Positions 3,335-50,230 of a DNA stretch of 64,000 nucleotides are shown here, one piece after another. Source of the stretch: Thuidium tamariscinum (lineage: Eukaryota; Streptophyta; Bryopsida; Hypnales; Thuidiaceae); the NCBI GenBank assembly GCA_947034885.2, contig OX344751.2:43677082-43741081 (forward strand). Reading direction: 5' to 3'. Made by a program: the position numbers and the translations under genes. Position 1 is the first letter of the stretch; the number at the start of each line of letters is the position of its first letter. The notes below the pieces were generated by a model. It had not been told where the DNA came from and ran no database searches. It was given only the letters and a program-made list of their open reading frames with translations.

Positions 3335-4057
3335 GGGTCGTTGCAAGAAACATTTACCGGTTTTGTCTCAAAATGGCCTATTTCGATGAATCCTATGACT
3401 TTTGGAATAAATTTTTTTTAAGTAAAATAAAATATGGATAATTTGAAGAGCAATGAGAATATTGTGTCTCTTAAAATTCATATCTAAGAAAATTTAAATC
3501 TAAAAGTTACGCACAAAAAAAGAACAATGAAAAATACAATGAAAATAGACACTTCGATGTCTGATTTTTTAAAAATAGTATTATTTTTTTATTTCTTAAA
3601 AACATCCATTTTTCCTAACTTAAGATGCTTCTCTTCAACCATTTTCATCTTTGAGAAAAATATTTTGTGTTCTCTAAAAGTGTTCCTTGGTACTGCACTT
3701 TGAGCATATGTGGAAGGTGGACAATTTTCTATTTTTAGAAAATTTCTTTGCAGTCTTTTGTAACTTTAGCAAATGTCTTTGCATGCCAATTTTGAGATTA
3801 AAATTTTCATTTTTGGGTCAGAAATTGGACTAAAACCCCACAAAATGGCCAAAGTAGACATCCAATCGGGGGCTATTTAAAAATAGTTAAATAATTCTTA
3901 AATTTTAAAAAAACTACATTATGAGTGGAACTTTTATTTGTACCTTTATTTCAAGTTTCTTATAAATTGGACAAACGATGCAAAAGTTATGAGTAAAAAA
4001 TCACATGTCCAAGGCCAAGAGGGCATAAAATAGGACAAGTATTTCTTGCAATCACCC
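3335..4057. mobile_element. GGGT-family inverted-repeat element, copy 1
   Basis: Terminal inverted repeats: the left end begins GGGTCGTTGCAAGAAACA, and the right end reversed begins GGGTGATTGCAAGAAATACT. The element is flanked by a perfect 4-bp duplication ATTT (3331-3334 and 4058-4061). About 720 bp long with no transposase frame, so non-autonomous. The interior is similar to copies at 14.3, 28.1, 38.4 and 49.5 kb. Confidence 0.85.
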
Positions 4058-4694
4058 ATTTGAACATTCTAAAAATAAAAATGTCAAAAAAGCTGTTCAA
4101 TGTTACACATTATTAATAGCATATGTATGTTTGGTAAGAATTGACATTCAGCATTTGGGAATAAATTCCATTTAATTTTCAATAAATTTAGGATTTTTCT
4201 TAGAATTAGTTAAATAAGAAATGTTTTCAAAATCTAGGCAATGATGAATGCTAAGATTACTTGGAATGGGGTACCTTATGTGTATTCAATTTGGCATGAA
4301 CATGCCAAAATATTTTAAATTTAACAATTTGACAGTGCGACAAATAAATAAGAATTTTTCAGTTTTGGACAATCTATGAGGATACTTGTAATTTTAGATT
4401 GATTCTTTCTATTCCTATGTAAATGTGTTTCTCTTTCTAATTTTCCTCAAGAACAATTTTTTCAAATTTTTAGAAATAGTTGTAAATAATTTTTCCAAAT
4501 TTTTCCATCTTCCGAATTTTTTTGAGTTATCTATGAAATTGACCTACACGTACAATACTTTGGAAGAAAAAACAAAGGACAATGGTGTCAAGTTCTACAA
4601 ACATGTCCCTTCCAACTCCTCTCAAAAAATTCTCCACCACTGAGATTGTATTATATTCAATACTTTTCAATTTTGTTCACAAAAAATGATGTTG
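4058..4694. other. AT-rich DNA, nothing recognised
   Basis: A 72-codon open frame at 4425-4643 (plus) is rich in Phe, Leu and Asn, as expected from AT-rich sequence, and resembles no family I know. No other feature supported. Confidence 0.5.
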
Positions 4695-5114
4695 CTCATA
4701 GTTCAGTTAAAATGTAGGGATTGTGTTAAAAGTCAAATTTTAGACCTCATTTAGGCATAGTAGAAACCCTTTTGTTTAAAAACTCCAACATAAAAGAAGT
4801 TGGTGAATCAAACTAAGCTTTTTTTCAAAAAATTTGTTTGAGGTTTTGAGACTCCACCTAAAAGTTATAGGCAAATTTCACAAAGGGGTTGGAAGGAACA
4901 TTTTTTTGAACATTTTCAAACACCCTCTATGAAATTTGTCCATAACTTTTTGTTGGAGTCTCTAAATTTCAAACAGATTGATGGAGATAGAAGTCATATT
5001 GAATCTCCAAATTTTTTTGGTTTAGAGGTTTTTAAAAAGGGTATTTTACTATGCCTAAATGAGGTCTAAAATTTGACTTTTAACACAATTCTTGCATTTT
5101 CACTTAATTATGAG
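4695..5114. mobile_element. Foldback element of about 420 bp
   Basis: The left arm (CTCATAGTTCAGTTAAAATG...) and the right arm reversed (CTCATAATTAAGTGAAAATG...) pair. A long well-matched block follows, including AAAAGTCAAATTTTAGACCT and AATGAGG. The arms are roughly 70 bp with weaker internal symmetry. No coding capacity and no clear target duplication. Confidence 0.7.
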
Positions 5115-6289
5115 TGGTAGAACTCCTTTTAGTCCTATTTCACATATCCCACATGGATTGTTTTACCTACCACTAATCCACATGTATAAAAAGCTTTTCT
5201 TTTCATCATCAATCACACAAAATTGAGTAAGTGGCTCAAGTAAGTATGTATCAAAAAATCAGTAAGGGGCACAAAAAGTTGCTTATTATGATTTATTTGA
5301 CAACTTAATGTTGTTCATTTTGCTCCCCTGTATTCTATTGCCTTGGTTTTGTGGTCTGCCATCTTTGGCAAAATTCACACTCACACTATACGGATGCAAC
5401 ATTTTTGATAGACTTTCTATTCCTCTTTTAATAGTTGTATTTGTCATCAATTTGGAGTTGTTGTCTAGCTTGAAATTCTTTACATGGCATTTCTTCCTTT
5501 TATATATATATATATTCAAATCAACAATTGGGATTTTGAACTACTTGAGTTGGATCTTAGATTAATTCTAGAAAATCCAACTTGGACTCTAAAGCCCTTC
5601 TACTATATTAGACTTGTAGGCAAACTTTGCACGGAGAGCTACAATGTCAAGTAAGTAATTATAGTGGCATGTGGACCTAGTGGGTGAGGAAAAGTTGAGT
5701 AAAAATTCCACTCAGTCATTTCCTTCAAGATTGACCAATCTCTACCAATAGGCTTGTCCACCAATTTCAATGAACTTTGAAATGATTGCTCTTCAATGCT
5801 TACTAAGACCAGCAAGACAATTGATGGAATCTTCTTGTCATCTAGTGTTTTTTTTGTCTACCAATCTCACATGGTAGGAGGCAAGCCATAAGTCCTTCTT
5901 TGACACCCAAACTCTCAAGAAGTATTGCCATGCAGGCATTTTGAAGTCATATGGGACTCAAGGATGTAGTATCAAGCCCCAACTAACTCCTAACTTTGAT
6001 AATTAGTGATCTACCAATCAAATTTTGATCATTTTTGGCCTTAGAATATCAGCCTTAAGATTTAGAGCAAATTAATGGAACAAATAAAATAAATGAACAT
6101 TTTCTCTCTCACTATTCAATGCAAGAAATGCCATTATTTTCTTAGGAATACTGTACATTGAAGTTATGAATATTTTCAAATTAGACATATTTTTGGGAAT
6201 TTGAATTGTTGGTCTTCGCATCTAACATCTAGAAGACTTAGAAAACCAATTTGGATTTTCTAACAATTCAAGCAATCTCTCTTGACTTT
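5115..6289. other. AT-rich DNA with a short TA microsatellite
   Basis: A short (TA)n run lies at about 5502-5514. Overlapping short open frames on both strands at 5286-5565 are mutually exclusive and unsupported. No gene seen. Confidence 0.5.
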
Positions 6290-7010
6290 GCTCTTAGCTT
6301 GAGATAGGTGGTTTTTTGCTTGTAACTTTTGAATCATATATCAATTTTAGGTGACATATAAAATAGAGGTATATATAGAAGTTTTAGACATTGAGTTATT
6401 TTTTTCAATTTTTAAAAATGAGTTTACTATTTCCAAATAGGCCCCAATTGAATGTCTACCTTTGACATTTAGATGAGGGGGGTAGTAGTACTAGTTTCGC
6501 CCCAAAATGTGAATTTGAATGTCAAAATTGGGAGACAAGGATTTTTATTAAAGTTACATAAGACCACCAAAGATTTTCTAAAAAAATAAATGTTCACCTT
6601 CCACATGATACATGTACTCAAAGTGAACTAATTTGTGCAATTGCAAAGAACACAATTTTTTTCTAGAAGATACATGTGGTTGAGAAGGAGCATCTTCAAA
6701 ATAGGGAAATAATTTTCTTTTTAGTTTATATTTTTGAATTTATTTTACTATTTTCTAAAATCAAATTTCAAAATATCTATTTTCATGGAATTTTTTATTG
6801 TTTTTTTGGTGCATAAACTTTAAATATAATTTTTTAGTCTTGAATTTTCACAAGCATGCTATTTAGGGTGCTTCACAAATTATCCACATTTAATTTTATT
6901 TTTAAAATGTTATTTCAAAAGTCACATAACAACATTTTAATCTTTAAGGTCATTTTGATAAATATTTTCAAAGGAACGAGTTTTTTTCTAGTTTCATGTC
7001 AAAATGGTTA
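6290..7010. mobile_element. Degenerate GGGT-family element
   Basis: The interior resembles the GGGT family in inverted orientation: a block with TAGGTGGTTTTTTGCTTGTA, then one with CAAAATTGGGAGACAAGGA, and finally TTTCATGTCAAAATGG. Both terminal repeats are too eroded to define, so the boundaries are approximate. Probably an old copy. Confidence 0.5.
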
Positions 7011-14349: not shown

Positions 14350-15420
14350 GGGTCGTTGCAAGAAACACTTACCGGTTTTGGCTCAAAATGGCTCAAAATC
14401 AATGAGTCCTGTGAGTCCTACGACCCTTTGAAATAAATTTTTTTTAAATTAAAAAAAATATGGATAATTTGAAGAGCAATGAGAATATTATGTCTCTTGA
14501 AATTCAGACCTAAGAAATTTTTTCTCTAAATGTTATAAACAATGAAAAATACAATGAAAATAGCTCTTTTTTCACTAATTTGGTAAAAATAGTAAAAAAA
14601 TTCAAAATATGAAAATGAAAAATCATTTTTTTCTTCAAGTAAAGGTCTTTCTTTTCCAACAAATTTCATCCATAAGAGGATTTTCAGCTCCTGTACAAGA
14701 CTGCGAGTTCCCAAACGTTGGGAACGCATTGGGAATTCTGGGAACGCGATGCTGATGTGGTCGAGCGACTGCCATGTCAGAAAATAATAATTTTTTATTA
14801 ATTTTAATTAAATATTAAATATTTTTTAAATATTTTTTTGAATCATTTTTTTTCTCTTTAATACATTCTGAAGTTTTTTGAAAAAAAAAATTTTAATTTT
14901 TAATTTTCAAAATTCAAAAATTCAGACCAGCAGGGTGCTGGTCTGTAGCAGTGGGAACAATTTTGGGGAACACCCCTGAAACGGTCTCCTGGGGGACCAG
15001 AAATCCTCTTATGTTTGGAAAAAATAAATTCTATTTTCTACGCTTGCGCAAAGTCAGCCACTTTGACGACATGTGGAAGTTGGACAGTTTAATATTTTGA
15101 AAAATACTTTTTAGGGATTGTGTAACTATACTATAGATCTAAGTATGCCAATTTTCAGCTCAAAATTTGCATTTTGGGGTCAAAAATAGGACTAAAACCC
15201 CCCAAAATGGCCAAGGTAGACAGCCAATCGGGGGCAGTTTAAAAATAGTAAACTAATTTTTAAAAAATTGAAAAAATTACACAACATATAAAACTTTTTT
15301 GTGAACCTTCATTCCAAATTTCAAGTTGATAGGGCAAACGATGCAAAAGTTATGAGCAAAAAACTACCTGTTGGAGGTCAAGGGGACAAAAAATAGGACA
15401 AGTGTTTCTTGCAATCACCC
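14350..15420. mobile_element. GGGT-family element, copy 2, inserted in the transposase gene
   Basis: Ends GGGTCGTTGCAAGAAACACT and (reversed) GGGTGATTGCAAGAAACACT. The flanks are TGTT (14,346-14,349) and TGCT (15,421-15,424), a 4-bp duplication with one mismatch. The length exceeds 1 kb only because a second element (14,671-15,013) sits inside it. Closest relative in the window: 49,493-50,230, in inverted orientation. Confidence 0.8.
14671..15013. mobile_element. CATTAG-family MITE, copy 1, nested
   Basis: Ends CATAAGAGGATTTTCAGCTC and (reversed) CATAAGAGGATTTCTGGTCC. The host element is uninterrupted in its relative at 49.9 kb, where TTTCATC runs directly into TTTGG. Here the same two words flank the insert with nothing duplicated. 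Interior: AT-rich centre with G/C-rich ends containing GGGAAC motifs, as in copies at 44.7, 45.2 and 54.7 kb. Confidence 0.8.
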
Positions 15421-15677
15421 TGCTGTTGGTTGTCCAAGTTGGACGCAGAAAGCATTTCGGGAGCTGTGTAAGGATTCTCAGAGCCAGAAACGGGTTGCCC
15501 CTTACTTACAGCCTTTGGAATTGCAAAAAATTCCTTTAGGATTGCCAAGTGATGGCTGAAACTCTCCTCAACACCATCTTGGCGCCAATATTGGGGATAT
15601 ATAATCCCAAAAGCATCCAGCAGAGATTGCTGTAGAAACCTGCGGTCAAGCTCAGCAATCAAAGACTGGGCGATCTC
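15421..15677 (-). pseudogene. Transposase pseudogene, second exon (5' part)
   Basis: Encodes AQSLIAELDRRF and DAFGIIYPQYWRQDG followed by HLAILKEFF, a segment typical of the late part of ZNF862/DUF4371-type transposases. The frame is open until the insertion point at 15,420/15,421, where the GGGT-family element begins and replaces the expected continuation. Confidence 0.7.
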
Positions 15678-16257
15678 TGCACAGTAAAGACCAACATGTG
15701 AGAAACAATGTCATCAAAGACAGAAAGCACATGACATTGAAGCAAAGGGAGTTCTTGGTTGCATCATTCCCACCCTCAAGTTTACAAAGCACTTGTTATG
15801 ACTGAAACAGACCAAGGGCCCCAAAAATTTTCTAAAAAAAAAAATGGGAGTTATTGCATCAGTCCCGCCTCCGCAAAGAACCTGCTGCAATACAAATGGA
15901 CTGAACTAGCCAACGAATTTGCAAAACAAAAAAAATGGGTTTAGGTGTATCGATCCCACCTGCAGCGCACAAGAACTGAAACAACAAACAAGAATTGAAC
16001 AATTGAAGCTACAGGAACTGAAACAACAAACACATGTCCAAAATAACCCCAACAATAAAAAATGGGTTTTTGTAATCGTCTCCAACCCTGGTTCACTTAA
16101 AACTTGTAGTTGGAAGAGACAATATAGAAGCAAAAACGATTTCCACAAATGAAGGCATAATTTCGAAACTGAACTTACAAGCAAAGGCAATACAAGAAAT
16201 GCCATATACAAAACAATGACATTATACACAAAACCAGAAAGGGAATCGAAGAATTAC
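15678..16257 (-). other. Putative intron of the transposase pseudogene, with a three-copy motif
   Basis: Donor CAG|GTAATT at the high-coordinate end and acceptor TGTGCAG|AGATC at 15,678. Inside, an A-run followed by ATGGG and then a short pyrimidine-rich segment occurs three times (about 15,834, 15,927 and 16,055), and the phrase GAACTGAAACAACAAACA occurs twice (about 15,971 and 16,015). Intron status is inferred from the splice sites and from the protein continuing on both sides. Confidence 0.6.
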
Positions 16258-18195
16258 CTGAAAATTGTCATTCAACATTCTCTTGCGCCCTGTTGTACTG
16301 CTCTTGGGTGACATAGAGATGTGCCCCTGTCAACTTGTCATGGCACCTTGCAAATATTTGGGCATACTGAAAGTTGAAAAGCAAATGGCAGATGCCACTG
16401 TCACTAGCCAAAGGCCGCCATAGCAAAGGAATGTCTGAACTAGACAAAGAAACTAAGTCACAGTAACAAGGAAAATCCACTTTGTCAAAAGTAGTGGATG
16501 CTTCCACAAACATCCGAGACAGTTCAACTTGGCAAAGCTTCAAGGCTTGCATATAATCACCAATGAAGATATCACGACATCACGTGCTTGTGACAACTTT
16601 ATCAATGAGTGCACAACATTTACCAAAGGGATAAAGCATGTTAGAGATAGAAACAGCTCAATATCAGAGAGGAGATCAAAATTATCAGCAGCCCCCTGTA
16701 TAGGCTTTGATCCAGGGCCAGAGGTCATGTCAGCGCCCATTTTGACCAACAGGGTGCGGTACTCAGACAAGATTCTAGCGGCAGGACTCCGCATTGAAAT
16801 CCACTTGGTTTCTACGTTTCGGAGCATTTTATTGCCCTTAGTTTCCATGAGATCAGCTAGTCTATGCAACTCAGCGTGGCATTTGTTACTCCGACAGAAA
16901 TAACTGTAGATTGACTAGAAGAGGCCCTCAAGCCGTAAGACCATAGGAAATTTAGAGATAGTCTCCACAACAAGATTCAAACGGTGACTGACACAACTTG
17001 CTCCTATGAGAAATGGTACCCATTTCTCTCTGATCTGGGTTGTCACTCCCGTTTTTGGCCCCTAGAATGTGCTCACACCATCGGCTCCAAAACAAATCAA
17101 CTTCCTAGAAATTTCCTCACGAGTTAATCCTCCCTCATTCAACAATCCATCCATGATAAGATCTGTCAAATGATCTGTCGTTCCACTCTCAGAGACGCAA
17201 GACAGCAACAAAAGATGTGGGATGCACTCCCATGAAGACATTGCATACACATGAATCCCCAACCAGGAGGTCCCATCGACGGCAGTTACCTCATCGGCAC
17301 TCAACGAAATGAAACTAGTAGACTGCACAATCGATTTCAAGGCAGACATCACAGACAAGTGAAGATGCTCGTTCATTTCCCAACCAATTGTCTCACTCCA
17401 GTGCTTATGGGGAAGATTTTTTACCTTGAGTTGTTTGAGCAAATTCTCTTGCCGTTCATAATCGCACATAGGGCGACCGTGTATCAAAATGTGGAGTAAA
17501 GTACAGAATTGAACCTGTTTTCTCTTGTACCCACCCTCCAGGCCTCCTTGGAGTTGATCGGCCACCGTCGCTCTCTTCTGTCCCGCCTAGAGCTTCACGA
17601 ACTGGAGGTGCTGGCAGTCGCTCTTGACAAAAACGTCACCTTTCTTGAGATGCGCAAAAGGAACGCCGTCCTCTCAACAAACCTGCTTACCCTCGTGCTT
17701 TTCCAGATCATCAACCTTTGGAACCAGCAACTTGCACCTCCTCAAAATGGAAGTGCGGCTGTGACAGATGACACCCGTAATGTCGCCCTCCGCGTTAAAC
17801 TCGCCCTCAGCCTAGGCGAATTTGCACGCCCAAACCTCTTGCCACCTTCGCGTGATAGTTCTAGATGCAGTTTTTGTGCGTTTCCGCCTGGTCGTAGCAG
17901 CCTCTACTGGTCTTTTGGCCAATTGGTGACCATCGCAATCACTCCCAAGATTGATGATCGGAGAGACAACGGTCACATCAGAACCCAAGAGCTTAAGTGC
18001 CGCAGGATCAGAAACAAGCTGCGAGAAGCGCGTCTGCATAACGTGGATGATCTCCACCTCCACCTCTGCGCCAAGGCCTCCGTCTTCGCCCAACGCCGTG
18101 TTCGGGACCAAGTATTTGCCCACTCCGTTGACGTTTTGGCTCGATTCAAACGTCTTTACTTGAAAATTTTCGGGCAATTTCAAGCGCAGTGCCAT
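16258..18195 (-). pseudogene. Transposase pseudogene, first large exon
   Basis: Carries the zinc finger and most of the RNase-H-like core. The start at 18,195 (MALRLKLPENF) is the first ATG in frame after a possible acceptor (GGGGTGCAG), so an upstream exon cannot be excluded. The exon ends at a CAG|GTAATT donor (16,257/16,258). Just before the donor a TGA interrupts the frame. After removal of the intron the frame would run QFS-E-IAQSL across the junction. A 319-codon open frame on the opposite strand (17,509-18,468) is a shadow of this exon. Confidence 0.75.
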
Positions 18196-21599: not shown

Positions 21600-21744
21600 G
21601 TGTATACCTTAAATTACAAGGAGTGATCTCCCCAAGAGAAATAGTTTTTGTTTTTTGCATTGAGTTTATAATTCAAAAGTTAGAGCCTTGTTAAAGAGGT
21701 AAAAAAAAATGCAACAAATAGTACAAGTGTTTCTTGCATTCACC
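21600..21744. mobile_element. Right-end remnant of a GGGT-type element with mixed interior
   Basis: The last bases, AACAAATAGTACAAGTGTTT then CTTGCATTCACC, match the terminus of the foldback element at 26.3 kb. The adjoining interior (AATAGTTTTTGTTTTTTGCA, TTCAAAAGTTA) matches the GATC-type elements near 30.6 and 37.1 kb. The left end is missing. Confidence 0.55.
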
Positions 21745-22158
21745 TTAGTTGGTCTTTTTTTAAATTTATATTAGCTTCTAGCTTCAAGAGTGCGAAATTG
21801 GCATACATTTATAATTAGACATTAAATATTATTATATTACAATATTTTGGAGTTTTTGTTTTGCAACCAAAAATATCAAATGAAATTAATCGATTATGGT
21901 ACATACAAGTAACAACTAATAAATTAGAAAATTAGTATTTTTGACAAACTAAAATAAAGAAATGTAGTAATTTTGACAATCACATAGAGATGTCATGGAC
22001 ATTTTAGACTTCTACTTTCCCAAATGATAGAAGGCACTATATATCTTCCATACCTTGAATAATCTATTCATCAATTATTGAATCCTTCACTATTCTCATA
22101 CAAAAAATTTCCTCATACTTTAGGCTTCTAAAACTAAACTAGTTATAAACAACATCCC

Positions 22159-24809: not shown

Positions 24810-24954
24810 CGATCTCAAGCAACCCAGATCGAGAATTGGCCCCTAACTCAAGAGAGGTATCGATGTGAAAATTCAAACGAAATGGTGAGGCGATAAAACC
24901 AGCTTGCGAGGATTGAACAACGAGAAGATCGATTGCAGCGCAAAGTTAACTTAC

Positions 24955-26319: not shown

Positions 26320-27408
26320 GGGTGAATGCAAGAAACACTTGTACTATTTGTTGCGTTTCGTCACATCCTATTTTTTTATTTTTCTTTTAGCCATAACTTT
26401 TGTATTTTAGCTCCAAATGACTCAAAATTTATAGGGAAGATACTTATAGATATTATATATCTAAAATGAATTTTTGAGATTTTTCAAAAATAATTTATTA
26501 TTTTTAAATAGCCTTGAAAATTTCTCACAATACTTGATTTAAGGGTTTTTAGCACCCCGTTTCTCCAAAAAAACGAAATTTGACCTAAAATTTGGAGAGC
26601 ATGGTCTCCTAGTAGACTTACACCTACTGTCCAAAGGAATTCTAGAAATACTTATTTTTAAGTGTTGTATAAGTCCACAAAGAGTGCTTCATTCTGCGTT
26701 TTTTTTCAAAAGTATAAAACATTATTTTGGTGAATTTTTTGGTTAAATCTCATCACCAAAAAGGTTTTCAAGTTTAATATTTTTATGTATTTTTCAAAAA
26801 AATAATACTATTTTTAACAAATTAAAATGTCACAAGTTGTATTTTCTTCACTAGAACTTTGGACATAGAATTCTCATAAAATTCCAGTGAAGAAAATACA
26901 ACTTGTGACATTTTAATTTGTTAAAAATAGTATTATTTTTTTGAAAAATACATAAAAATATTAAACTTGATAAACGTTTTGGTGATGAAATTTGACCAGA
27001 AAACTCACCAAAATAATGTTTTATACCTTTGGAAAAAAATGCAGAATGAAGCTCTCTTTGTAGACTTATACAACACTTAAAAATAAGTATTTCTAGAATT
27101 CCTTTGGACAGTAGGTGTAAGTCTACTAGGAGACCATGCTCTCAAAATTTTAGGTCAAAATTTGTTTTTTTGGAGAAACGGGGTGCTAAAAACCCTTAAA
27201 TCAAGTACTGTGAGAAATTTTCGGGGCTATTTAAAAATAATAAATTATTTTTGAAAATCTCAAAAATTCATTTCAGATATATAATATCTATGAGTAGCTT
27301 TCCTATAAATTTTGAGTAATTTGGAGCTAAAACACAAAAGTTATGGCTAAAAGAAAAAGAAAAAATTAGGGTGTGACAAAAGGCTTTAAGTGTTTCTTGC
27401 ATTCACCC
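26320..27408. mobile_element. GGGT-family element, copy 3: almost complete palindrome
   Basis: Left arm 26,320-26,852 and right arm 26,886-27,408 are inverted copies over about 520 bp with few mismatches, around a 33-nt loop. Ends GGGTGAATGCAAGAAACACT on both sides. Perfect 4-bp duplication CTAT (26,316-26,319 and 27,409-27,412). The unoccupied site exists in unit B at about 34,370-34,385 (TTTTTGTCTATGCACCTTTG). No coding capacity. Confidence 0.9.
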
Positions 27409-28077: not shown

Positions 28078-28790
28078 GGATTGTTGCAAGAAACACTTAC
28101 CGTTTTTGGTTCAAAATGGCCTATTTTGATGAGTCCTATGACTTTTGGAATAAATTCTTTTTAAGTAAAATAAAATATTGATAATTTGAAGAGAAATGAG
28201 AATACTCTGTTTCTTAAAATTCATACCTAAGAAAATTTAACTCTAAAAGTTATGCACAAATAAAAGCATAATGGAAAATATAATGAAAATAGACACTTTG
28301 ATGTTTGATTTTTTTTAAGTAGTGAAAAAAATTTAAAAGATAAAATTTAAAAATATTTTTCCTAACTTCAAGATGCTTTTCTTCAACCATTTTCATCTTT
28401 GAGAAAAATAAATTGTCTTCTCTTCACATGCGCAAAGGTAGTTCACTTTGAATACATGTGGAAGTTGGACAATTTACAATTTTTAGAAAATTTCTTTGTG
28501 GTCTTGTGTAACTTTAGTAAAAGTCCCTGCATGCCAATTTTGAGCTTAAAATTTTCATTTTGGCGTCAAAAATAGGACTAAAACCCCCAAAATGGCTAAA
28601 GTAGACATCCAATTGGGGGCTGTTGAAAAATAGTAAAATAATTTTAAGATTTTATAAAAAAATTTCATTACGTTTGGAACTTTTACATGTACTTTTCTTT
28701 CAAGGTTTTGTGTCAAATGGACAAACAACGCAAAAGTTATGAGTAAAAAACCACCTGTCCAAGGCCAAGGGGACAAAAATAGGACAAGGG
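28078..28790. mobile_element. GGGT-family element, copy 4, right terminus lost
   Basis: The left end, GGATTGTTGCAAGAAACACT, and the interior match copy 1. At the right the sequence stops at AATAGGACAAGG and runs straight into the flank, so the last ~17 bases of the terminal repeat are deleted. The empty site is in unit B at about 35,045-35,065 (TATGTCCCTTCATTCATTTT). Confidence 0.8.
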
Positions 28791-29642: not shown

Positions 29643-30706
29643 AGATCATTGCAAGGAAGACCCACCATTTTTAGTAGAGTTTTACAAAAGTGTTGCTATC
29701 CTTTTCTATAACTTTTGAATTATGAACCCAATGCCCAAAACAAAAATCTATTTCAAGGTGACTTGATTGTAATTGTATCTTTTATTTTTTTTAAACTCAA
29801 AAAAATCATTTTATAATTAAAAGAAAATTGTGTTAATTTGTCACACTTTTAGATTTAAAGATTTTGGATACAATTGAGTTGTTTAAAGTAATGATTTTTG
29901 GCTGAAATTTTTGTGGTACATTCTTATAGTAGGCGGATATGATCCTATCAAAGGGCTTCTAAAAATTCATAACCCTATGTCCTCTACATTTGTGCAAATA
30001 GGCGTCCATCTATGCACATTTTTAAACTTTAAGAATGGTTTTGACCTCATGTTTTTTTTAAAATCTCACTTTCATTAAGTCCTTACAACTTGCTAATGTT
30101 TAGTTTTTTATTCAAATATAATTGATTTATTATAAATTAAAAACTAGACATATTTCTTTACTATCTAAAATTCTATCTCCAAGAATCCAACATAGAAAAT
30201 ATATACTTTGACATTTTAATTTGTAAGAAATAGGAAAAACAATTTTCATGAAAAATAATAATTGGCCATCTGGGAAGACTTTGTGGTGATGAGATTTGAC
30301 CAAAAATATGAGATCAAAACTATTCATAAAGTTTAAAAGAGTACATGCATATTGCACAAATGTAGAAGACATAGGGTTATGCATTTTTAGATGCCTTTTG
30401 ATATGATTATGTCCACCTACTCCATAATTGTACCATGAAATTTTTAGCCAAAAATCATTAATTTAAACAAGTCAATTGTATCCAAACCCCCCAAAGCCCA
30501 AAGTGTGACAAATTAACAAAATTGACTTTTGATTATCAAATGTTTTTTTTTTAATTTTGAAAAAAAAAGGATACAATACAATTAAGAGACCTTGAAATAG
30601 ATTTTTGTTTTTAGCGTTGGCTTCATAATTCAAAAGTTATAGTGGAGGGTATTTGTAATTTTGCAAAACCCTACCAAAAATGGTCACTCTTTCTTGCAAT
30701 AATCCT
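29643..30706. mobile_element. GATC-type foldback element, copy in unit A
   Basis: Left end GATCATTGCAAGGAAGACCC; right end reversed GGATTATTGCAAGAAAGAGT. The interior is a long imperfect inverted repeat (for example CCTATGTCCTCTACATTTGTGC on the left against its complement on the right). The terminal core TTGCAAGAAA is shared with the GGGT family. It sits at the same place in unit B, so it predates the duplication. Confidence 0.7.
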
Positions 30707-31489
30707 AGTATTTTAGGATTAAAGTTCCATTTCTTTCATTATAGATATAAAATCACATGCAAAGTTTGACTTTTAAGATTAGTTCTTTTGCCATTACTTC
30801 AAAATTGATGAATGTTGGTTGTAAAATCTAGTATTCAATAAAATCTTCAAATTTGGATAGGAATGTCTAAACATTGAGAACTATTGCTTATATAAGCAAT
30901 ATAGATGAACATTTAATATTCATATTACAATGCATTCATCAATCAAGACTAGAAATTTAATTTAATTTTTGAATTGAAAAAAGTTCAAAAAACATATATA
31001 GTTCCTTGTTAAGAATGTTCAAACCCAGAAAGAACTTTGAAGGCTTTCTACATATAATTATTAACCACATGGAGGTGGTTCCTTTTTGCTCCAATAGAAA
31101 ATGAGAGCCCCTTGCAAGTTGCAACACAACTTCCTAGCCATCCAAATGACTCTCTACAATTGTCCAGTCATTCAATGACTTAGTTTGTGCAAATTAAACG
31201 AAATTGACTCTTAGAGATCTAGGAAGGGATTATTCCAATCTTAAGAAAATCCAAAAGAACTCATTTGAAGTCAACCTATAGTAGAAGATTTATACTTTTC
31301 ATCCTTAATTTTGAAGATGAATAGTTGTAGCATTGTCTTCAATACACAAAAAAGTTTCTTGTCATTGATTGGACACTAAATGTCCTTTGCGTCCCTTTTG
31401 GATTAAATTGCAACTCTAGAGGCATTCAAAGATTCTATGGAAAGTTGAGTGATGCTGGACATAAAGTCCAATCAAAATTGCTTATTGAA

Positions 31490-32383
31490 TTCAAATCAAT
31501 TTACATTGCCATCTAAAAAATTCTTCACAATCAATGATAATTGGACTATTTGAACTTATTTTTTTGACAATTTGGTGAGGGTATAAGGTGCAACAAATAA
31601 GAAGCTATTCAATAATGAACCAAACATCCAATTTGTGGATTTTGAGCCACTTCAAACATTGACAATTATATGACATCCTTATGTACTTTAAGCAATAATA
31701 GAGAAAAAAAGAAGTAATAAAGGATCATTGCAAGAAAGACCCACCATTTTTGGTAGAATTTAACAAAAGCGTAGATCCTTCCCTATAACTCTTGAGTTAT
31801 GAACCCAATGCCAAAAAGACAAATTTATTTCTAGATGTCTTAATTGTAATTGCATCACTTTTAATTTTTTTAAACTTTAAGAAATCATTTTATAATTAAA
31901 AGTCTATTTTGTTAATTTGTCACACTTTTAGGTTTAGGGATTTTGGAATTTGGATACAATTGAGTTGTTTAAAGTAATGATTTTTGGCTGAAATTTTTGT
32001 TGTACATTCTTGTAGTAGGAAGACATGATCCTACCAAAAAGGCATCTAAGAATTCATAACCCTATGTCCTCTACATTTGTCCAAATAAGTGTCCCATATG
32101 TACACACTTTTAAACTTTAAGAATGGTTTTGACCTCATATTTTTGGTCAAATCTCATTATCATTATATCCTTACAAATTGCTAATGTTATGTTTGATTAT
32201 TATTTTCATTGATTTTGTGACTAGTCTATGATTTGAAATAGAATGACCTATACAACAAAAATAGATTTTACACAAGTATAGTTAATTCATTATGAATGAA
32301 AACCTAGAAATATCTCTTTTCTATCTAAAATTCTATCTCCAAGAATCCACCATAGAAAATACATACTTTTGACACTTTAATCA
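31490..32383 (+). repeat. Partial third copy (unit C) of the duplicated segment
   Basis: Matches about 29,430-30,200 of unit A, including the left half of the GATC-type element (from 31,732, GGATCATTGCAAGAAAGACC). It ends abruptly at about 32,383-32,395, where sequence homologous to 24,955 begins. This junction is the visible breakpoint of the duplication. Confidence 0.7.
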
Positions 32384-32727
32384 ACTTAATGGTAGCCTGG
32401 TTCGACTCTACAATGCAATGCAGTACACGGCCCATGCAACTTGGTCGTTACTGAAAAGGGGTGCAAGAATTGAGTACTGCGAGCTAGCTGGAATCAATGA
32501 AGCTTGTCCCGATTCTCGAACTTGCAATGTGCTCTTGGGTGCTGCACCAGCTAACGTGCAGTGAACAGGATTTGACACGCCAGAATATCTGGATGAGAGT
32601 TGACGCATTCTGTGCCGCGGTCCGTAGAATTATCCATGTTTCGTAATACTGCACAAGCAAGGACGATAACTACTTCGTACGAGATGGAATAACCATTTGT
32701 CTTGGTGTGGCACTTTTGAATAATTAA

Positions 32728-32949
32728 CTAGGGTGGCCCATGCCGTTGCCACGGTCTAATTTTTTTAATGTATAGAAACTTCAAAATTCAATAACTTTCA
32801 TGTTGTAGGTTGGAACATCATGAATCAAAGCCCGTGCACCCCTCCTTGCCGAGGGCTTTCCGACGGTACCAAACATGCACCCGGGGAACTCACGGTCCAG
32901 GAGATCTCAACGTAACAAACAAACAAACAAACAACGTATCTTCTTAGGG
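32728..32949. mobile_element. Short insertion with a (CAAA)n tail, possibly a retroposon
   Basis: Unit A reads GAATATTTAATTACAGCCTG where unit B has about 220 bp inserted between GAATAATTAA and ATTACAGCC. The insert begins CTAGGGTGGCCCATGCC, is locally GC-rich, and near its right end has AACAAACAAACAAACAAAC. ATTA at both edges could be a target duplication. No Pol III boxes seen; type uncertain. Confidence 0.5.
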
Positions 32950-33336
32950 GGATTACAGCCTGTGTAGAATTTGTGTGACTCTTGCTGCCTTGGAGCCATC
33001 CGAGGAGAAACTGAAGATTTTGGTGGTAACTCGGCAACACTGATTCCACGGAAAACCTACTCTAGGGTACAGAATTATAGTTCATTTCTGTTAAGAAACG
33101 GGTTACAGACACTGCGTGACAGTGAGGTCCTCCTGCAAGAAATCGTGCAGCAATTGAGTTTCTTTTATAAGCTTGGACGGAGTAGAACTTCACTTCATGG
33201 ACAGACTGAAGCGTTCCTGCCCTTGCAGCCGAAGTCTTCAGAGCGGTGGCGAGGTGAATCCTGAAGGCTCAGAGAATCATTCTGCTTCTTGGAGCTCGAG
33301 CAGCCATGAAACTTGAAGATAAGGTAAGAGGTCCTA

Positions 33337-33613
33337 TAAGGTGGGTACACCTAAAAGCGCCACTTTCTCATACTGTGCCTAGTTCCTGTTATTATGTTGT
33401 TCAAATTTTTTTACAGTCTTGTTGGTGAGTGAAAGCATGTTCCAACGCACCAAAGAACAGTGGATTTGGATACCGTATGCAAAAGTTATTAACAGTCAAA
33501 GTGTGTTTCTGAAAGCGCCATCTACAGTCTGGGTACATGACTGATTTTGAAAATGTATGCACGTTGTACAGAGCGCTTTAAGGCACTGCGCGATTTTGGG
33601 TGTACCCACCTTA
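33337..33613. mobile_element. AGGTAGGT-family MITE, copy 3
   Basis: Ends TA-AGGTGGGTACACCTAAAAG and (reversed) TA-AGGTGGGTACACCCAAAAT. The internal GCGCCATCTACAGT is present. More diverged than the copies at 10.3 and 12.4 kb; absent from unit A. Confidence 0.75.
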
Positions 33614-33924
33614 ATGGACCATCTAAGGGCTGAAACAGAATTTCAGGGAGGTCAAACCTCTAGAAATATTTTTCAGTAAATTTCCCTTGAAGGACAAGTA
33701 GAATTGACATCTAACCCAAGTGGTTTCATATTTTTTTAAGCTTTGTGGAATTAGTTATAAAATTTTGAAGTTGATGTGGCATAGGGCTCTAAAATGGAGC
33801 ACCTCCTAAAATGTACACAATTTGTACATTGTTGAAGGCTATGAAAAAGCAATATGTACAACTATTGTACATTTAAGATAGGGCACCATTTTAGAACCCG
33901 CTTCATTTAAGAGTCTTCTACATT
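33614..33924. mobile_element. AGGAGGT-family MITE, copy 2, left end damaged
   Basis: The interior closely follows the copy at 41.1 kb (CCATCTAAGGGCTG, CATCTAACCCAAGT, GATAGGGCACCATTTTAGAA). The right end is TTTAAGAGTCTTCTAC. The left terminal repeat is missing; the element abuts the MITE at 33,613. Confidence 0.65.
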
Positions 33925-35957
33925 ACAATCAGTCTGCGGTAATTAGTCTGGATACTCAGTTACACGTTGCACTACAATTTCCATTTTATCTATCAAATTA
34001 ATGGAGCATATGAATGGAACAAATCAAATGAACGAATGTATTGTAATTTGCAACCGGAAAGGGACCCATTACTATCCGGAGCCCCATCCAGAGCCCCATT
34101 GCCAATCAATAGCCAGGGTACCATATTTCTAACCAAGGTTGGAACAAATTTCCATTTTTTCCTTGGAGTGTATGTTTTTGTACTTTTCAAGGTTTGAACC
34201 AATAAGTTCATGACACATAAGTAAGTGAGTGGAAAAGTAGTTCTTAAATGATCTAAATTGAATGAATCTAAATGTTGGTCATAGGTCAAGTCCAACTTTT
34301 GTCTTTCAAAATTTATAGTAATTTCAATTCAAGAAATAAAATTATCAAAATTTTTGCAATCCCCATCATTTTTGTCTATGCACCTTTGTAATAATTTTAT
34401 TTGCCTTGCACTACCTTAGATTATGTTTAGATGTGCTCATTTGATCATTTGATTAGTTATGGTCCCTCTACCAAAAATAATTAATCTACCTCTCAAATTA
34501 ATTAAAGCTTGAGCATTCATGAAAGATATAATGATTTGGATACTTACTTGTTGCACTATAGTTTTGAGGCCTCTCCATTTTATCTACAATTAAGTTAAAG
34601 AGAAAAAGAACAAATAAAATAAAATGAATGAATGTATTGTTGTTTGGAAGTTTTTGTTGTGAACATAAAGACTACATTTTTTTAATAAGTTGTCAAGTTC
34701 CAACTATCCTTATTTCAAATTATCCTGCCTTTGAAGATTCATGAAAATGATGGACTTCACTATCAAGACCTCTTTGCCTCTACTTTTTACAACCCATCAA
34801 TGAAGCATCTTCATTTCATGACATAAAATTATTTAAATATTTGGTAGTGTATGATACATGACTTAAAATTAATATAATTTAAAACATTAGGTGACTTTAA
34901 TTTTATTTGGTTTCAACTATTTTAGTCATGAAATTTTGAACAAGAAAATTTGATTCACTATAATGAACTTTATTTTTATCCAATGTATTCTTTAGCTATA
35001 CTATATTGTGATACTAGCCGTTAAAAAGTCTATCAATATTTATATGTCCCTTCATTCATTTTGCATTAAATCATTAGCCTTTTAAACTTTGCCACTTTAT
35101 CTAGGATGCATTAGACTATAAGTATATGAAGTCTTCTTATTCATTAGATTAGGTCTTTTTTTTTGCAATTTTATGATTATTTTTGTAATCTAGTACTTGA
35201 TACATTTATACATGAAAATTTATTAAAACTAAAATATATAAATAAATGAATTTGCATATACATAAGCAACAAATTTATAAAATATAAATGATTAAATAAT
35301 GTTGATTTCTAACAAAGCCCTTGTTTGTCACACTAGAATCTACTTAAAATGCATTGATTATGAGGTTTTAAAATTTTTAGAATAATCTCACAATGACAAT
35401 GAATGCATTTTAATGATGAATGCATTAATATTCATCATTGATTATGTTTGTATTCAAAATAACTCATAATTTTGGGAAGTATTTGAGAATTTATTCTAGG
35501 ACTTGTGACAATTGACAAACTACTTATAAGTTAGTATATCTAGATATATAGATTGAAAAAAAGATATCATATATTCTACTTTGAACTCAATTCCTATGTT
35601 TTGAAAATAAACTTTCATCTTTGAACTATCTCAAATCTCCTAAAGAATCATGATGGACTGACTATTGATTTCATTATAAAACAACCTCTTCATTCTTCAT
35701 TTTCATTAAATGTCAATGAAGTAAGTCTTTCACATTGCCATCAAAAAATTCTTGATGGTCAATGGTAATTGAACTATTTTGAACATTTTCTTTTTTTCAA
35801 CAATTTGGTTGGGGTATAAGGTGCATCAAATTACAAGGTGTTTACTAATGAATCAAACATCCACTTTGTGGATTTTGAGCCACTTCAAACATTGACAACT
35901 ATGTGAAATCCTTATAGTTGTAGTGTAAACACCAATAGAAAGAAAAAGAGTGATAGA
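33925..35957. other. Unit B non-coding stretch
   Basis: AT-rich sequence colinear with unit A (about 25,650-26,310, 27,430-28,070 and 28,800-29,640). It contains the empty sites of the elements at 26.3 and 28.1 kb. No gene seen. Confidence 0.6.
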
Positions 35958-37200
35958 GGATCATTGCAAGAAAACCCCACCATTCTTTATAGAGTTTTGC
36001 AAAATTGTAACTACCCTTCCTTATAACTTTTGAATTACAAACCCAATGCCCCAAACAAAAATCTATTTCTAAGTGTCTTGATTGTAGTTGTATCTTTAAT
36101 TTTTTTGAAATTTAAGAATTCATTTTACAAGTAAAATTCAATTTTGTTAATTTGCCACACTTTGGAATTTAGGGATATTGGATACAATTGAGTTGTTTAA
36201 AGTAATGATTTTTGGTTGAAATTTTTGTGTTATATTCTTGTAGTAAGCGAATATAATCCTACCAAAGGCTATCAAAAAAATTCATATATAACCCTATGTA
36301 TGTCCTCTACATTTGTGCAAATAGGTGCACCATGTGTGCGTATTTTTTTAAACTTTAAGAGTGGTTTTGACTTCATATTTTTGGTCAAATCTCATTATCA
36401 TTTAGTCTTTACAACTGACTAATGTTCAGTGCTTTATTCTAGTATAATTAATTTATTATAAATTAAAACCCAGATATAATTATCCCTTTACTATCTAAAA
36501 TTCTATCTTCAAGAATCTACTATAGAAAATACATACTTTGACATTTTTAATAGGAAAAAATAGGAAAACAATTTTTATAAAAAATAACAATTGTCTGTTA
36601 GAGAAGACTTTGTAGTGATGAGATTCACTACAAAAAATGGGGGTATAAATGACTTGTCCACAATGCCTTGCACCGACAACAATGGCTACAAAATGACTAC
36701 AAAATGACTATTTTACAATCATTGTTGTCCATGCAATCATTATAGACAAGTCATTCATACTCCCATTTTCTTTTAGTGATTTGACCAAAAATATGATGTC
36801 AAAACTATTCTTAAAGTTAAAAATGTCCATGAATGGAATGCCTAATTAATTGCACAAATGTAAAGGTTTTAGGGTTGTGCATTTTTAGATGCCTTTTGAT
36901 AGGATCATGTCCACCTACTACGAAAGTGTACCACAAATTTTTTTGCCAAAAATCATTACTTTAAACAAGTCAATTGTATCCAAAAAAATCCTAAACCCAA
37001 AGTGTGACAAATTACCAAAATTGACTTTTGATTATAAAATCTTTTTTTTATTTTAAAAAAAGGGATATGATTATAATTAAGACAACTAGAAATAGATTTT
37101 TGTTTTTAGTGTTGGGTTCATAATTTAAAATTTATAGTGGAGGGTAGTTGCAATTTTACAAAACCCTACTAAAAAAAGGTTAGTCTTTCTTGCAATGAGC
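35958..37200. mobile_element. GATC-type foldback element, copy in unit B
   Basis: Left end GGATCATTGCAAGAAAACCC. Right end CTTTCTTGCAATGAGC. The interior matches the copy at 29.6-30.7 kb except for a 153-bp CACTA MITE at 36,626. Confidence 0.7.
36626..36778. mobile_element. CACTA-type MITE
   Basis: Starts CACTACAAAAAATGGGGGTA and ends (reversed) CACTAAAAGAAAATGGGAGT. The inverted repeat continues through ATGACTTGTC. Perfect 3-bp duplication ATT on both sides (36,623-36,625 and 36,779-36,781). The unit A sequence at about 30,287-30,302 (GATGAGATTTGACCAAAA) is the empty site. Terminus and 3-bp duplication define it as a CACTA derivative. Confidence 0.9.
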
Positions 37201-38411
37201 TTAGTATTTTAGGAAAAAAGCTCCTTTTTTTCATTAAAGATATACAATCACATGAAAATTTTGACCTTTTAAAGATTGGTTGTTTTGCCATAACTTCAAA
37301 ATTGAAAAATGTTGGTTGTAAATCTAGTATTCAATTTAATTTTCAAATCTAGATAGAAATGTGTAAACATTGAAAACTATTGCTTTTTATAAGCACTATG
37401 CATCAACGGTCAAATTTTAGAGCACAATGTGTTCATCAATCAAGACTAGAAATTAATTTTTTCTTTGAAATGAGAAAAAAATATGCATTTTTTTGTTAAG
37501 GCTAAATGTTAAATCTTGTAATTAAAAGTTGGCCCAATCCTATGGCTCAACATGGGATCCACCCCGATCACGAGACTTCGATGATCATGCAGCTATGCTA
37601 CATAGGGACTCTACAAGATAATGTTTGCATAGGGCTATAATACTGTAGGACATGAACCTTGTTGAAATTTAGGACGACCACCACCACCACCATCTTAAGC
37701 TAGGCAATGGATTAGTTTTTTAGATTCTTTTTTAAACTATGAACTAATTTACATACATGACATTAATTTGTCTTACCTCCTACCACCCCATGTGTATATA
37801 TAGAGTTGTCTTCTCAACGCAGAATACAAATCACAAAACACAAAATACAAATCACAAATTATAAAATTTAAAAAAAAAAGTTGAAATAATTATTGTAAGT
37901 TCTACTACATCAACATTTAAGGAACAATTTAGAGAACATATTTCAAAGTTCATGTAGGATGTATAAAGTTCCATCCATCCATCTCCTTACAATGTACTTT
38001 ATGGCAATTATATTATCCTACAAGTCCTATATAGAATGAACACTTTAGATATTTTAGAATTATAAAAAATTTCTTTTAGATGAGGCTTGTTTGTTACATG
38101 TCCTACATCAACTTTGAAATATGGATTAAAATAAATTTTGGATGTGGTAATCATAAAAGTCATATTCTTTAAAGGTTAATTAAAAAAATGTTCTCTAAAT
38201 TGTTCCTAAAATGTTATTATGGAAAATTTTATTAAACTGGTTGTATTCCATTTGCCAAATTTCAAACTATGCAACTTGAACTAAAAAGTGACATCTAAGA
38301 CAAGTATAGATTTTTAGGCATCTAAGATTCTTATAGATCTCAAATAATCTATGACAGGTATAGATTTCAAATTGCATTGTTTAAAACATCTTAGACAGGT
38401 ATGGATTTTAG

Positions 38412-39143
38412 AGGTGATTGCAAGAAGCACTTGTCCTATTTGTTGTCCCCTTGGCCTTGGATAGGTGATTTTTTGCTCATAACTTTTGCATCGTTTGTCT
38501 ATTGTACACAAAACTTGAATTTCAGGTATACATAAAAGTTCTAAACATAACGTAATTTTTTGAATTTTTTTAAAATTATTTTACTTTTTTTAAACAAACC
38601 CCAATTGGATGTCTACCCTTGGCCATATTGGAGGATTTTAGTTGTCTTTTTTACCCAAAAATGAAAACTTTAAGCTCAAAATTGGCATGCAAGGACCTTT
38701 ACTAAAGTTATACAAGACCACAAAGAAATTTTCTAAAAATAGTAAATTGTCCAACTTCCACATGTGCTAAAAGTGGACTACCTTTGTATACGTGTACAAA
38801 AGACAATTTATTTTTCTAAAAGATGAAAATGATTGAACAAAAGCATCTTGAGGTTAGGAAAAATAGATTTTTGATTGAATTTTTTTGAATTTTTTTACTA
38901 TTTAAAAAAAATCAAACATCAAAGTCTCTATTTTCATTATATTTTCCATTGTGTTTGTTTTGTGCATAACTTTTAGAGTTAAATTTTCTTAGGTCTAAAT
39001 TTTAAGACGCACAGTATTTTCATTTTTCTTCAAATTATCCCTATTTTATTTTATTTAAAAAAAATTTATTCCAAAACTCACATGACTCATCAAAATAGGC
39101 CATTTTGATCCATAAGTAGTAACTATTTCTTGCAATTATTCCT
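38412..39143. mobile_element. GGGT-family element, copy 5, inside the Mutator-like element
   Basis: Left end AGGTGATTGCAAGAAGCACT; right end (reversed) resembles GGAATAATTGCAAGAAATAG. The interior matches copies 1, 2 and 4 in inverted orientation. The termini are eroded, and a 4-bp duplication (TTAG versus CTAG) is only suggestive. Confidence 0.7.
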
Positions 39144-39186: not shown

Positions 39187-39908
39187 GGGTGATTGCAAAA
39201 AACACTTGTCTTATTTTGTATCACACGCTGCATTCTGATTTGTTTTTTGGCCATAACTTTTGTGTTTTATCTCCGATTCATTCAAGATTTGTAGGGAAGG
39301 TACTCATCACTATCGTAAACCTTCTATAATTTTTTCATAATTTTCAAAAATAGTTTACTATCCAAAAATAGACCCCAATTGGATGTCACACTTGGCACTT
39401 TAGGAATTTTTAGTACCTGAGCTATACCTTTTTTTAATGATTCTAACATGAAATTTGGATGAAATGGTCTTCTAGTAGACTTCTAGCTCTCCAGGGAAGG
39501 GTTTTTTTTTAAAGTTAATTTTGTGAGGTGTAGAGGTCTACAAAGTGAGCTCCCTTCTGCTTATATTTTGAAACATATAAAATATTATTTTGGTGATTTT
39601 TTTGTGAATGACCATCTCCATAAAGTTGTTGCAAATGGCCACTTTTTATTTTTTGAAAATATCTATTTTTACCATTTTTCCCTAATTAAAACATGAAGGT
39701 ATGTATTTTCTGGAGGTTTGGCACTTTTCAAGTTTACCTACTTAGAGAATTTTTCTATCCATTTCTTTTGGTGAAAACCTTCATCTTAGAGGTATATACA
39801 CTATTCATATTTTTTAATTTAAAAAATAATTAATTTTCTAATTTTAAAGTTCTCCCAAAAAAATCAGCCAAACGCAACAAATAGGACAGGTGTTTCTTGC
39901 AATCACCC
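39187..39908. mobile_element. GGGT-family element, copy 6, inside the Mutator-like element
   Basis: Ends GGGTGATTGCAAAAAACACT and (reversed) GGGTGATTGCAAGAAACACC, with a perfect 4-bp duplication ATAT (39,183-39,186 and 39,909-39,912). The interior is closer to the palindromic element at 26.3 kb than to copy 5. Confidence 0.85.
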
Positions 39909-44968: not shown

Positions 44969-45240
44969 ATTTTTTCAAAATAGATGATTTACACTATAGT
45001 AAAAGGAATGATTTCTATGGTCACCAATCCATCTTTAAGGGTTAACAAGCAGCTTAGCTAATACGACCATGGATCCACATGCATCTTTTGGGGATTTAAC
45101 AACACAATCCTCCTCTTTTGCAGCCATAAGTGCAATAATCCCAGCATTGTATGGTACCTACACAAAGACCAACATTGAAGCTTGAAAAATTCCAACTCAT
45201 GTCTTTGCAACACCCAACATAATTCTCCACTTCAACTTAT

Positions 45241-47860: not shown

Positions 47861-47979
47861 AGAGCATCCCCGTGCCTGCACTTCAAACATTCTGAACCAT
47901 TGATCTTCCTCTTAGGAAGAAGATCAGTGGTCCATAATGCTTAAAGTATTGCTTTGAAGTGTAGGCATGGGGATGCTCT
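47861..47979. mobile_element. Small foldback MITE
   Basis: Left end AGAGCATCCCCGTGCCTGCA, right end reversed AGAGCATCCCCATGCCTACA. Pairing continues through CACTTCAAA and the inner palindrome GATCTTCCTC/GAAGAAGATC. GAGCATC termini are common among plant hAT-type MITEs; an 8-bp duplication is not visible. Confidence 0.75.
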
Positions 47980-48059
47980 ACATTAAAGCGAGCATCACAA
48001 GGCACCTTGCGCGCTGGAACTCAAACTATCTGCAACCTTCACTAGAAATCCAGCATAAC

Positions 48060-48245
48060 GTTAAATCCTACCATCAAAGGTGGGCCTAGCGAGATAAAAC
48101 TTGTTTTACTAGGGGTTGACAAGGGTTTAGGGTTTATTTTTGTGTTGGATTTTTGGTTTGTTTCGACCCACCATGTAGCTAATTTAGGGTCTCTGATTAC
48201 AAATATGAATTTAGAATTCAAAAACAATAAAAAATAAAAATATGT
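48060..48245. mobile_element. GTTAAATCC-family MITE, partial copy
   Basis: The left end, GTTAAATCCTACCATCAAAG, is identical to the full copy at 52,686. The inner part has AATTTAGGGTCTCTGATTAC, related to the interior of that copy. The right terminal repeat is missing; the 3' flank of the ankyrin gene follows. Confidence 0.65.
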
Positions 48246-49492
48246 CCTATTCAAAGAGAAAAAAAAGACTAGGTCTTTTTACTTAAGCACCTTGTGTCTT
48301 GAGTCAAAAGACCCCATCTTATATAAATCTAAAATTTTTAAATAGTTTGGATTCTCCTCAATAATCTATCTCCTCCCAATCCTGGAGTTCATTTTTGTAC
48401 TCATGTGTATTGAAGGAATTTTCTACCATACTTTTGACCAAAAAAACTAAACTAATTGTACACAACACCCCTCCAATCAATGTTGGAACTATCATACATC
48501 ATTGATACTTCAACAATGGTGTCAATACAATAGTTCCAGCTATTGCAAATGCTATTATCACAAACAACACTGAACATGCCAAAAGGAATGAAGTCACCAA
48601 AAGATTTATACGAAGCTTGTCCACAGTTTTCTTGATGAATAAATGGCTCCTTGGTAACACACTTTGAGCACCACAAACAACGGTTGCAATCGCAAAATAG
48701 AAAGAAAGGGCATTGAATACCCAAAACACACGAAGTGGAGTATTGTGTTCAACATCCGCATAATTGATGTTGGAAGATGAAGAGCTTGAAAATCCTTCTC
48801 CAGAATAGGATGTATAATTCAAAGGTGGTTGCAACCATGAAGCAAAGGTGACACTAGCAATGAGCGCTGCACCTACGAGAATGGCATTAGCGGCATCTAC
48901 ATAGACTTGGCGATCTCTATAGAGCCTCTCCATGAAGCTTTTAACAGGATCACATTCCATGAGTGCTGCTTCAATATCCTTGTAGCGATGGCCCCTTTCA
49001 AATGCAATTTGGATAGGAGGTCCAAAGTCTTTGTTGCATACTTCATTCAATCGAATTTGGTCTTTGAAAGAGTCCAAAAGTGCAATCATAAATTGTTTAT
49101 TGCAACGAAGAATAGCCACGTAGAAGGTAGAGTAGTTGAGTTTATCCAAAGCTTTCACATCAAATTCGTTGTTTTGAGCAAGATATTGCACAATCCTTGT
49201 CACAGCATCAACATTGTGATGAGGAAATGTTGCAAGGTAATGCAATGGCGTCCTTCCGTTCTCATCCCTTGCATTGACATTTTGAAAAGGCAACTTTTTC
49301 ATGAAGTCGATGTCTCCATTTCGTACAGCTATATGGAAGGGATCTTTCCCCATTGTATCCTTCTCCAACAATTTCCCCAACAAGTCTATACTTTTGATCT
49401 TGCAAGCATAATCTAAAGGCATTTGAGATGACCAATTTTTGTAATTGACATCAGCGCCCTTGTTCAAGATTGCATCAATGATGTGGATATCT

Positions 49493-50230
49493 GGGCTTTG
49501 GCAAGAAACACTTGTCCTTTTTTTTGTCCCCTTGACCTTTTGGAGGTAGTTTTTTGCTCATAACTTTTGCATATTTTGTTCATTTGACTTGAAACTTGAA
49601 ATGAAGGTGCCTACAAAAGTTTTACATTTTGTGTAATTTTTTCAATTTTTTCAAAATTAATTTACTATTTTTAAACTGCCCCCGATTGGGTGTCTACCAT
49701 GGCCATTTTGGGGGGTTTTTAGTCCTTTTTCTGACCCAAAAATGAAAATCTTGAGCTGAAAATTGGCATGCAAGGACATTACCTAAAGTTACACAATACC
49801 ACGAAGAGATTTTTTGAAAATAATATATTGTTCAACCTCCACATGTCGTCAAAGTGGATGACTTTGCGCAAGTGTGGAGAATAGAATTTATTTTTTCCAA
49901 AGATGAAATTTGTTGTAAAAGAAAGACCTTTACTTGGAGAAAAAAAGGATTTTTTATATTTATTTTTTGAATTTTTTAACTATTTTTACCAAATTAGTGA
50001 AAAAGAGCTATTTTCATTGTATTTTCCATTGCCTATAACATTTAGAGAAAAAATTTCTTAGGTCTGAATTTCAAGAGACATGATATTCTCATTGCTCTTC
50101 AAATTATCCATATTTTTTTCAACTTAAAAAAAAATTATTTCAAAGGGTCACAGGACTCACAGGACTCACAGAACTCACTCATTTTGAGCCATTTTGAGAC
50201 AAAACCGGTAAGTGTTTCTTGCCACGACCC
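49493..50230. mobile_element. GGGT-family element, copy 7, inside ankyrin-PGG copy 2
   Basis: Left end GGGCTTTGGCAAGAAACACT, right end reversed GGGTCGTGGCAAGAAACACT. Perfect 4-bp duplication ATCT (49,489-49,492 and 50,231-50,234). The intact coding sequence of copy 1 at about 23,378-23,390 shows the site without the element. Carries the uninterrupted version of the sequence that hosts the nested MITE at 14,671. Confidence 0.9.

Follow-up and report, generated by a model that had tools for sequence, protein, structure and literature searches.

The 64-kb stretch of Thuidium tamariscinum DNA analysed here (the window), which lies inside a 363-Mb genome of 19 contigs, contains several copies of a non-coding element that begins with GGGT and ends with ACCC. 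It raises the question of what kind of mobile element these copies are and what moves them. We concluded that the family is real, abundant and internally diverse, and that it very probably consists of non-autonomous cut-and-paste DNA transposons, i.e. large miniature inverted-repeat transposable elements (MITEs), which make 4-bp target site duplications (TSDs) and are served by a transposase in trans. This degree of confidence covers the observed features together with an in-trans transposase cutting with a 4-nt stagger; an assignment to the superfamily Sola stands outside it and is weighed separately below.

When the window was searched for the terminus GGGTGATTGCAAGAAACACT with up to three mismatches, 12 sites were found, against 0.02 expected from dinucleotide shuffles. 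A preliminary description of the window had listed seven bounded copies. Direct reading of termini and flanks showed that all seven start coordinates (3335, 14350, 26320, 28078, 38412, 39187 and 49493) are real, and two clear ends were present in five of the seven; copy 28078 has no right tip and the right end of copy 38412 is degenerate, so that "bounded" applies to the other five. The flanks confirmed the four perfect 4-bp duplications of that description (ATTT, CTAT, ATAT and ATCT) and its fifth with one mismatch (TGTT/TGCT). The copies and related pieces are as follows.

3335..4057, + strand: subfamily A copy, 723 bp, TSD ATTT/ATTT
14350..15420, + strand: subfamily A copy, 1071 bp, of which about 14671-15016 is nested insertion, TSD TGTT/TGCT
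26320..27408, + strand: palindromic (fold-back) copy, group D, TSD CTAT/CTAT, empty site at 34259-34537
28078..28788, + strand: subfamily A copy without right tip, empty site at 34902-35200
38412..39141, - strand: subfamily A copy with degenerate right end, flanks TTAG/CTAG if the boundary is set at about 39141
39187..39908, + strand: subfamily C copy, 722 bp, TSD ATAT/ATAT
49493..50230, - strand: subfamily A copy, TSD ATCT/ATCT, empty site at 23250-23533 in a paralogue
21706..21745, - strand: lone end, partner end not found
6291..6848, strand not assigned: diverged A/B-group fragment in which no ends were found

The joined flanks of copies 26320, 28078 and 49493 were aligned to the window, and the three empty sites that had been reported were recovered at 34259-34537, 34902-35200 and 23250-23533, respectively. 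Each is consistent with a single copy of the target and no element. The exact right border at the second site is blurred because the right tip of copy 28078, roughly 20 bp, is missing. Copy 49493..50230 is flanked by reading-frame pieces of an ankyrin/PGG gene, and its empty site lies in a paralogous ankyrin gene that is only about 75% identical.

The exact 20-mer of the terminus occurred 3,256 times genome-wide (1,596 forward and 1,660 reverse), and the reversed-pattern control 0 times. The preliminary description had proposed that the duplication length be tabulated over genomic copies, and we did so for 44 two-ended copies, a sample of those in the genome. The window contributed six of them, 20 regions picked from the 100 listed places of the exact 20-mer gave 17, and one was in locus L027; the rest came from 18 of 20 regions among the 40 listed matches of an A-type end query, with two more in L065 and L070. 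Ten of the 20 regions picked by the exact 20-mer had been selected for a facing pair of exact ends. As a control, the left flank of one copy was paired with the right flank of another. The 4-bp flanks were identical in 27/44 copies and differed by at most one base in 38/44, whereas the mispaired control gave 0.60 (maximum 2) and 4.19 (maximum 9). Flanks of 2, 3 and 5-10 bp stayed within the control range, so 4 bp was the only length above it. Four further two-ended copies agreed, three with an exact and one with a single-mismatch 4-bp duplication. The target is weakly A...T, as the first base was A in 16 and the last base T in 14 of the 27 exact duplications.

The termini form an inverted repeat (TIR) of about 21 bp, GGGTGATTGCAAGAAACACTT, followed by TTT at positions 28-30. 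In 48 ends of 24 copies, bases 1-21 were near-invariant except for positions 5 and 6, conservation fell after base 21, and the TTT recurred. Conservation of bases 1-20 is partly built in, because most copies were picked by those bases; the drop after base 21 and the TTT are independent of this selection. Past the terminal repeat, the two ends of one copy are unlike in most groups.

The interiors divide the copies into groups A (left end ...ACTTACCGG), B (...ACTTCACG), C (both ends ...ACTTGTCC), D (copy 26320), E (locus L070) and F, the last of which is described below. Groups A and B have the right-hand 240-280 bp or so in common (about 75-95% identical). A and C are about 73% identical over the right-hand 240 bp, and the left halves align barely better than shuffled sequence. 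A subterminal motif like ATAACTTTTG recurs in several groups, and our guess is that it might be a binding site of the transposase. Length was 711-760 bp in 41 of the 44 copies; this narrow range holds even though the interiors of some subfamilies can barely be aligned.

Copies are A+T-rich, and the longest stop-to-stop frame in 23 of them was 96 aa. Eleven stop-masked translations, covering some frames of some groups, gave no Pfam match at the curated cut-off (the sole listed match, with an E-value of 0.18, is below threshold), and an Rfam search of the window gave no match at the gathering score. The short frames and the Pfam result supported the non-autonomous status claimed for the family. 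Conserved TIRs, a duplication of fixed length and no transposase gene in the sampled copies and frames are together what is expected of non-autonomous TIR elements (class II, subclass 1).

PIF/Harbinger elements duplicate 3 bp and hAT elements 8 bp, and exact matches of these lengths were found in 2/44 (control 1.09) and 0/44 copies, in agreement with neither superfamily. The sections of PMC10741241 used here name seven plant TIR superfamilies, and give a 2-bp TA duplication for Tc1/mariner, CACTA/CACTG ends with a 3-bp TSD for CACTA, and 7-12 bp for Mutator-like elements. A 2-bp match was seen in 5/44 copies (control 4.47), which does not indicate a TA duplication; both the ends and the TSD length depart from CACTA; and no exact match was found at any of 7-10 bp (0/44 each) or at 11 bp (0/24). 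The earlier statement that 4 bp does not suit the usual plant superfamilies therefore held, with 2, 3, 8 and 9 bp all at control level or at 0/44.

The palindromic copies might suggest Mutator or fold-back elements with an unusual duplication length. In copy 26320 the palindrome is nearly complete, its arms pairing over 380 nt (95% identity) and 155 nt (86%), and this copy and family F resemble fold-back elements in this respect. Most members, however, are non-palindromic and have inverted repeats of only about 21 bp, and the absence of any exact 7-10 bp duplication among the 44 copies speaks against Mutator as well. We regard this explanation as very improbable.

Solo long terminal repeats (LTRs) may duplicate 4-6 bp, a range that includes the length found here. 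Ginger also duplicates 4-6 bp, and with Sola (4 bp) overlaps our family in TSD length among the superfamilies in the consulted sections of PMC10741241. The same source gives Ginger TG...CA ends and TIRs of 40-270 bp, whereas our copies have GGGT...ACCC ends and TIRs of about 21 bp; Ginger fails because the ends differ. Likewise, none of the 44 copies had an exact match of 5 or 6 bp. That the copies are solo LTRs or Ginger elements is hardly credible.

The copies resemble plant MITEs of the Tourist, Stowaway, hAT and Mutator types in being short, non-coding, A+T-rich and present in high copy number, with inverted repeats and TSDs. They differ in the TSD (4 bp instead of 2, 3, 8 or 9 bp) and in their greater length, MITEs being mostly below 500 bp in the consulted part of PMC10741241.

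Sola is the best fit among the known plant superfamilies. The relevant sections of PMC10741241 give Sola 4-bp TSDs, TIRs from 11 to 1124 bp and an occurrence in Physcomitrella, and a table in PMC9033089 has Sola1 of that moss. Four-bp duplications, inverted-repeat termini of variable length and occurrence in a moss are thus shared, and the long inverted-repeat forms (26320 and F) fall within the TIR lengths of Sola. On the other side, Sola has a DDD transposase whereas our copies of about 730 bp are non-coding, the likeness was drawn from published descriptions of Sola, and according to the same part of PMC10741241 Sola is uncommon in flowering plants. That the copies are non-autonomous Sola members, Sola1-like as in Physcomitrella and moved by a Sola transposase, is quite possible, at somewhat under an even chance. 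Membership is not claimed, because no transposase has been linked to the ends. Repbase assigns non-autonomous families by TSD length and bases 1-11 (PMC4455052, in the sections used), and profiles of 17 DDE/D superfamilies are described in the consulted part of PMC10294476. The caution of the preliminary description stands: termini alone do not show Sola, Chapaev or Academ. The family most likely belongs to a known kind, in that its elements behave as Sola-type or other 4-bp transposons do, without being classed as Sola.

A superfamily with 4-bp duplications that is undescribed, or unreported from plants, is an only slightly less likely alternative. No usual plant TSD length agreed with our copies, the exact terminus strings were absent from viral and prokaryote sequence collections, and none of four terminus strings was found as letters in the literature searched. 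This absence is weak, as these collections contain few or no plant transposons and Repbase and Dfam lie outside the comparison. In its strong form, a superfamily new to plants or to science would have moved at least six subfamilies over a long span, sharing little beyond the 21-bp end and in some cases barely alignable inside; their length would hardly vary (about 710-760 bp), apart from palindromic forms of about 1.1 kb. We consider that unlikely.

The remaining candidate for the mover came from the same genome, in which elements with a DUF7869 domain (PF25273) are abundant: 854 first-look candidates gave 150 scored matches, of which many lie in frames that are intact and 950-1076 aa long, and many are on contig C11. 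We read 20 loci (L049-L068) and six longer stretches of 9 kb (L069-L074). At one locus (L050, also L069) a GGGT-type end with two mismatches lies just beyond the gene, and the class I copy in L049 can be aligned for 7 more bases into the end at L069, an extension that we took as chance. Against this, 18 of the 20 loci had no GGGT-type end within five mismatches; in L065 a whole GGGT copy with flanks TGTA/TGCA interrupts the DUF7869 element as an insertion; and the L069 end lies beyond the point where class I likeness stops. Eight of nine other class I loci have no GGGT end at that place, and in L066 the sequence stops after 13 bases. The elements form at least three classes with unlike 3' ends, copies ceasing to be alike at ...GTGTT or ...TGTT in classes I and III and at ...GGCCTT in class II, with unlike flanks. 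DUF7869 elements were disfavoured as the mover because these observed 3' ends differ from the GGGT ends; their 5' ends were not located. We consider this origin of the transposase quite improbable. No paper on DUF7869 was found in the literature searched.

Class II elements (L071, L072 and L073) carry a 974-aa frame and are 95-99% identical over 6-8 kb. They finish in a hairpin-like ...GTCTCATTTTAACGAATAAGGCCTT, to which no inverted repeat corresponds within the 11.5 kb examined, and match offsets indicate tandem repeats of about 354 bp on the 5' side.

Longer copies were sought among ends with rare subterminal variants. Among the 100 listed of 130 such ends, two facing pairs were about 0.7 kb apart and none was at 1-15 kb. 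Six of these ends were read: four belong to B-group copies of ordinary length, the one in L081 is F-like, and in L082 about 400 bp outside the listed top matches is followed by a B-like stretch. Unpaired ends in L029 and L030 were considered as long copies and rejected, as both are explained by nested insertions. Loci L022, L023 and L025 contain seven frames of at least 110 aa; the three of these scanned with Pfam gave no match, and one further frame is a PsbO-like exon in L023, which marks the host as photosynthetic.

The insertion in the A copy of L030 is about 300 bp long (587-886) and has inverted ends like AGTGTCCTCCCC by eye. That in copy 14350 (14671-15016) is a repeat of about 346 bp, also present in L024 at 1052-1414, with inverted ends like CATAAGAGGATTT by eye. 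Disrupted frames resembling a transposase by eye (SADEVTAVDGTSWLGIHVYAM...) occupy 15423-17586 on the - strand of the window and start where copy 14350-15420 ends; four pieces of these frames gave no Pfam match. Elsewhere in the window, an LTR retrotransposon is represented at 56439-59617 by frames for gag, reverse transcriptase and RNase H.

Besides the listed copies, the window contains a diverged sibling, family F, which was absent from the preliminary description. Its representatives are:

29643..30705, + strand: family F copy, palindrome, ends like GGATCATTGCAAGAAAGACCC
35958..37201, + strand: family F copy from the opposite half of a segmental duplication, flanks TAGA/TAGT
31722..32201, + strand: end of family F with the part next to it, third copy of that stretch

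The copy at 29643-30705 is palindromic across its length at about 76% identity. Ends of F type with at most one mismatch numbered 526 genome-wide (control 0). Among the 100 listed of these, one pair faces each other (+/-) at a distance of 4.16 kb, on contig C1 at 17,931,496-17,935,653. From the number of ends and the genome size, a pair at about 4 kb would arise among the listed ends by chance with a probability of roughly 0.1-0.2. This interval is the best lead and a candidate for an autonomous copy. An F-type end in L028 had no partner, and no inverted repeat of at least 25 nt was found in the 1.7 kb examined.

The segmental duplication (about 24948-30982 versus 32383-37479, in pieces 80-90% identical) also contains the empty sites of copies 26320 and 28078, and a third partial copy of it lies at 31500-32201. 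Family F is older than the duplication, because F copies with their flanks occupy both halves. Copies 26320 and 28078 are present in one half only, and therefore were most likely inserted after the duplication; that they were instead lost cleanly from the other half is less likely.

Several points weigh against our reading of the family as 4-bp-duplicating elements moved in trans. No autonomous copy was read, and no transposase was linked to GGGT ends at the sampled loci or around the DUF7869 genes. Six of the 44 copies differ by two or more bases at their 4-bp flanks; one of them is copy 38412, whose boundary is uncertain, and two others, L009 and L010, have two exact ends yet unmatched flanks, possibly from recombination between copies. 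Partnerless ends (copy 28078, L022, L023, L025, L029 and L030) were excluded before the count. The flanks of family F in the window (TAAA/TAGT and TAGA/TAGT) show no 4-bp duplication, and the link to Sola consists only of TSD length and a moss precedent.

Even so, the non-autonomous, trans-mobilised reading remains the one we favour. A transposase supplied in trans would recognise the 21-bp ends and make cuts staggered by 4 nt in the target, and repair of the gaps would then produce the 4-bp duplication. With less confidence, that transposase may belong to Sola or to a near relative that also duplicates 4 bp.

Relative insertion dates can be obtained within one window, as family F and copies 26320 and 28078 illustrate. 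Because the termini are known exactly, and a sibling family and one long candidate interval are at hand, the autonomous partner is directly searchable. Abundant MITEs with 4-bp duplications suggest that a transposase from outside the common plant repertoire has been active at large scale in this moss genome.

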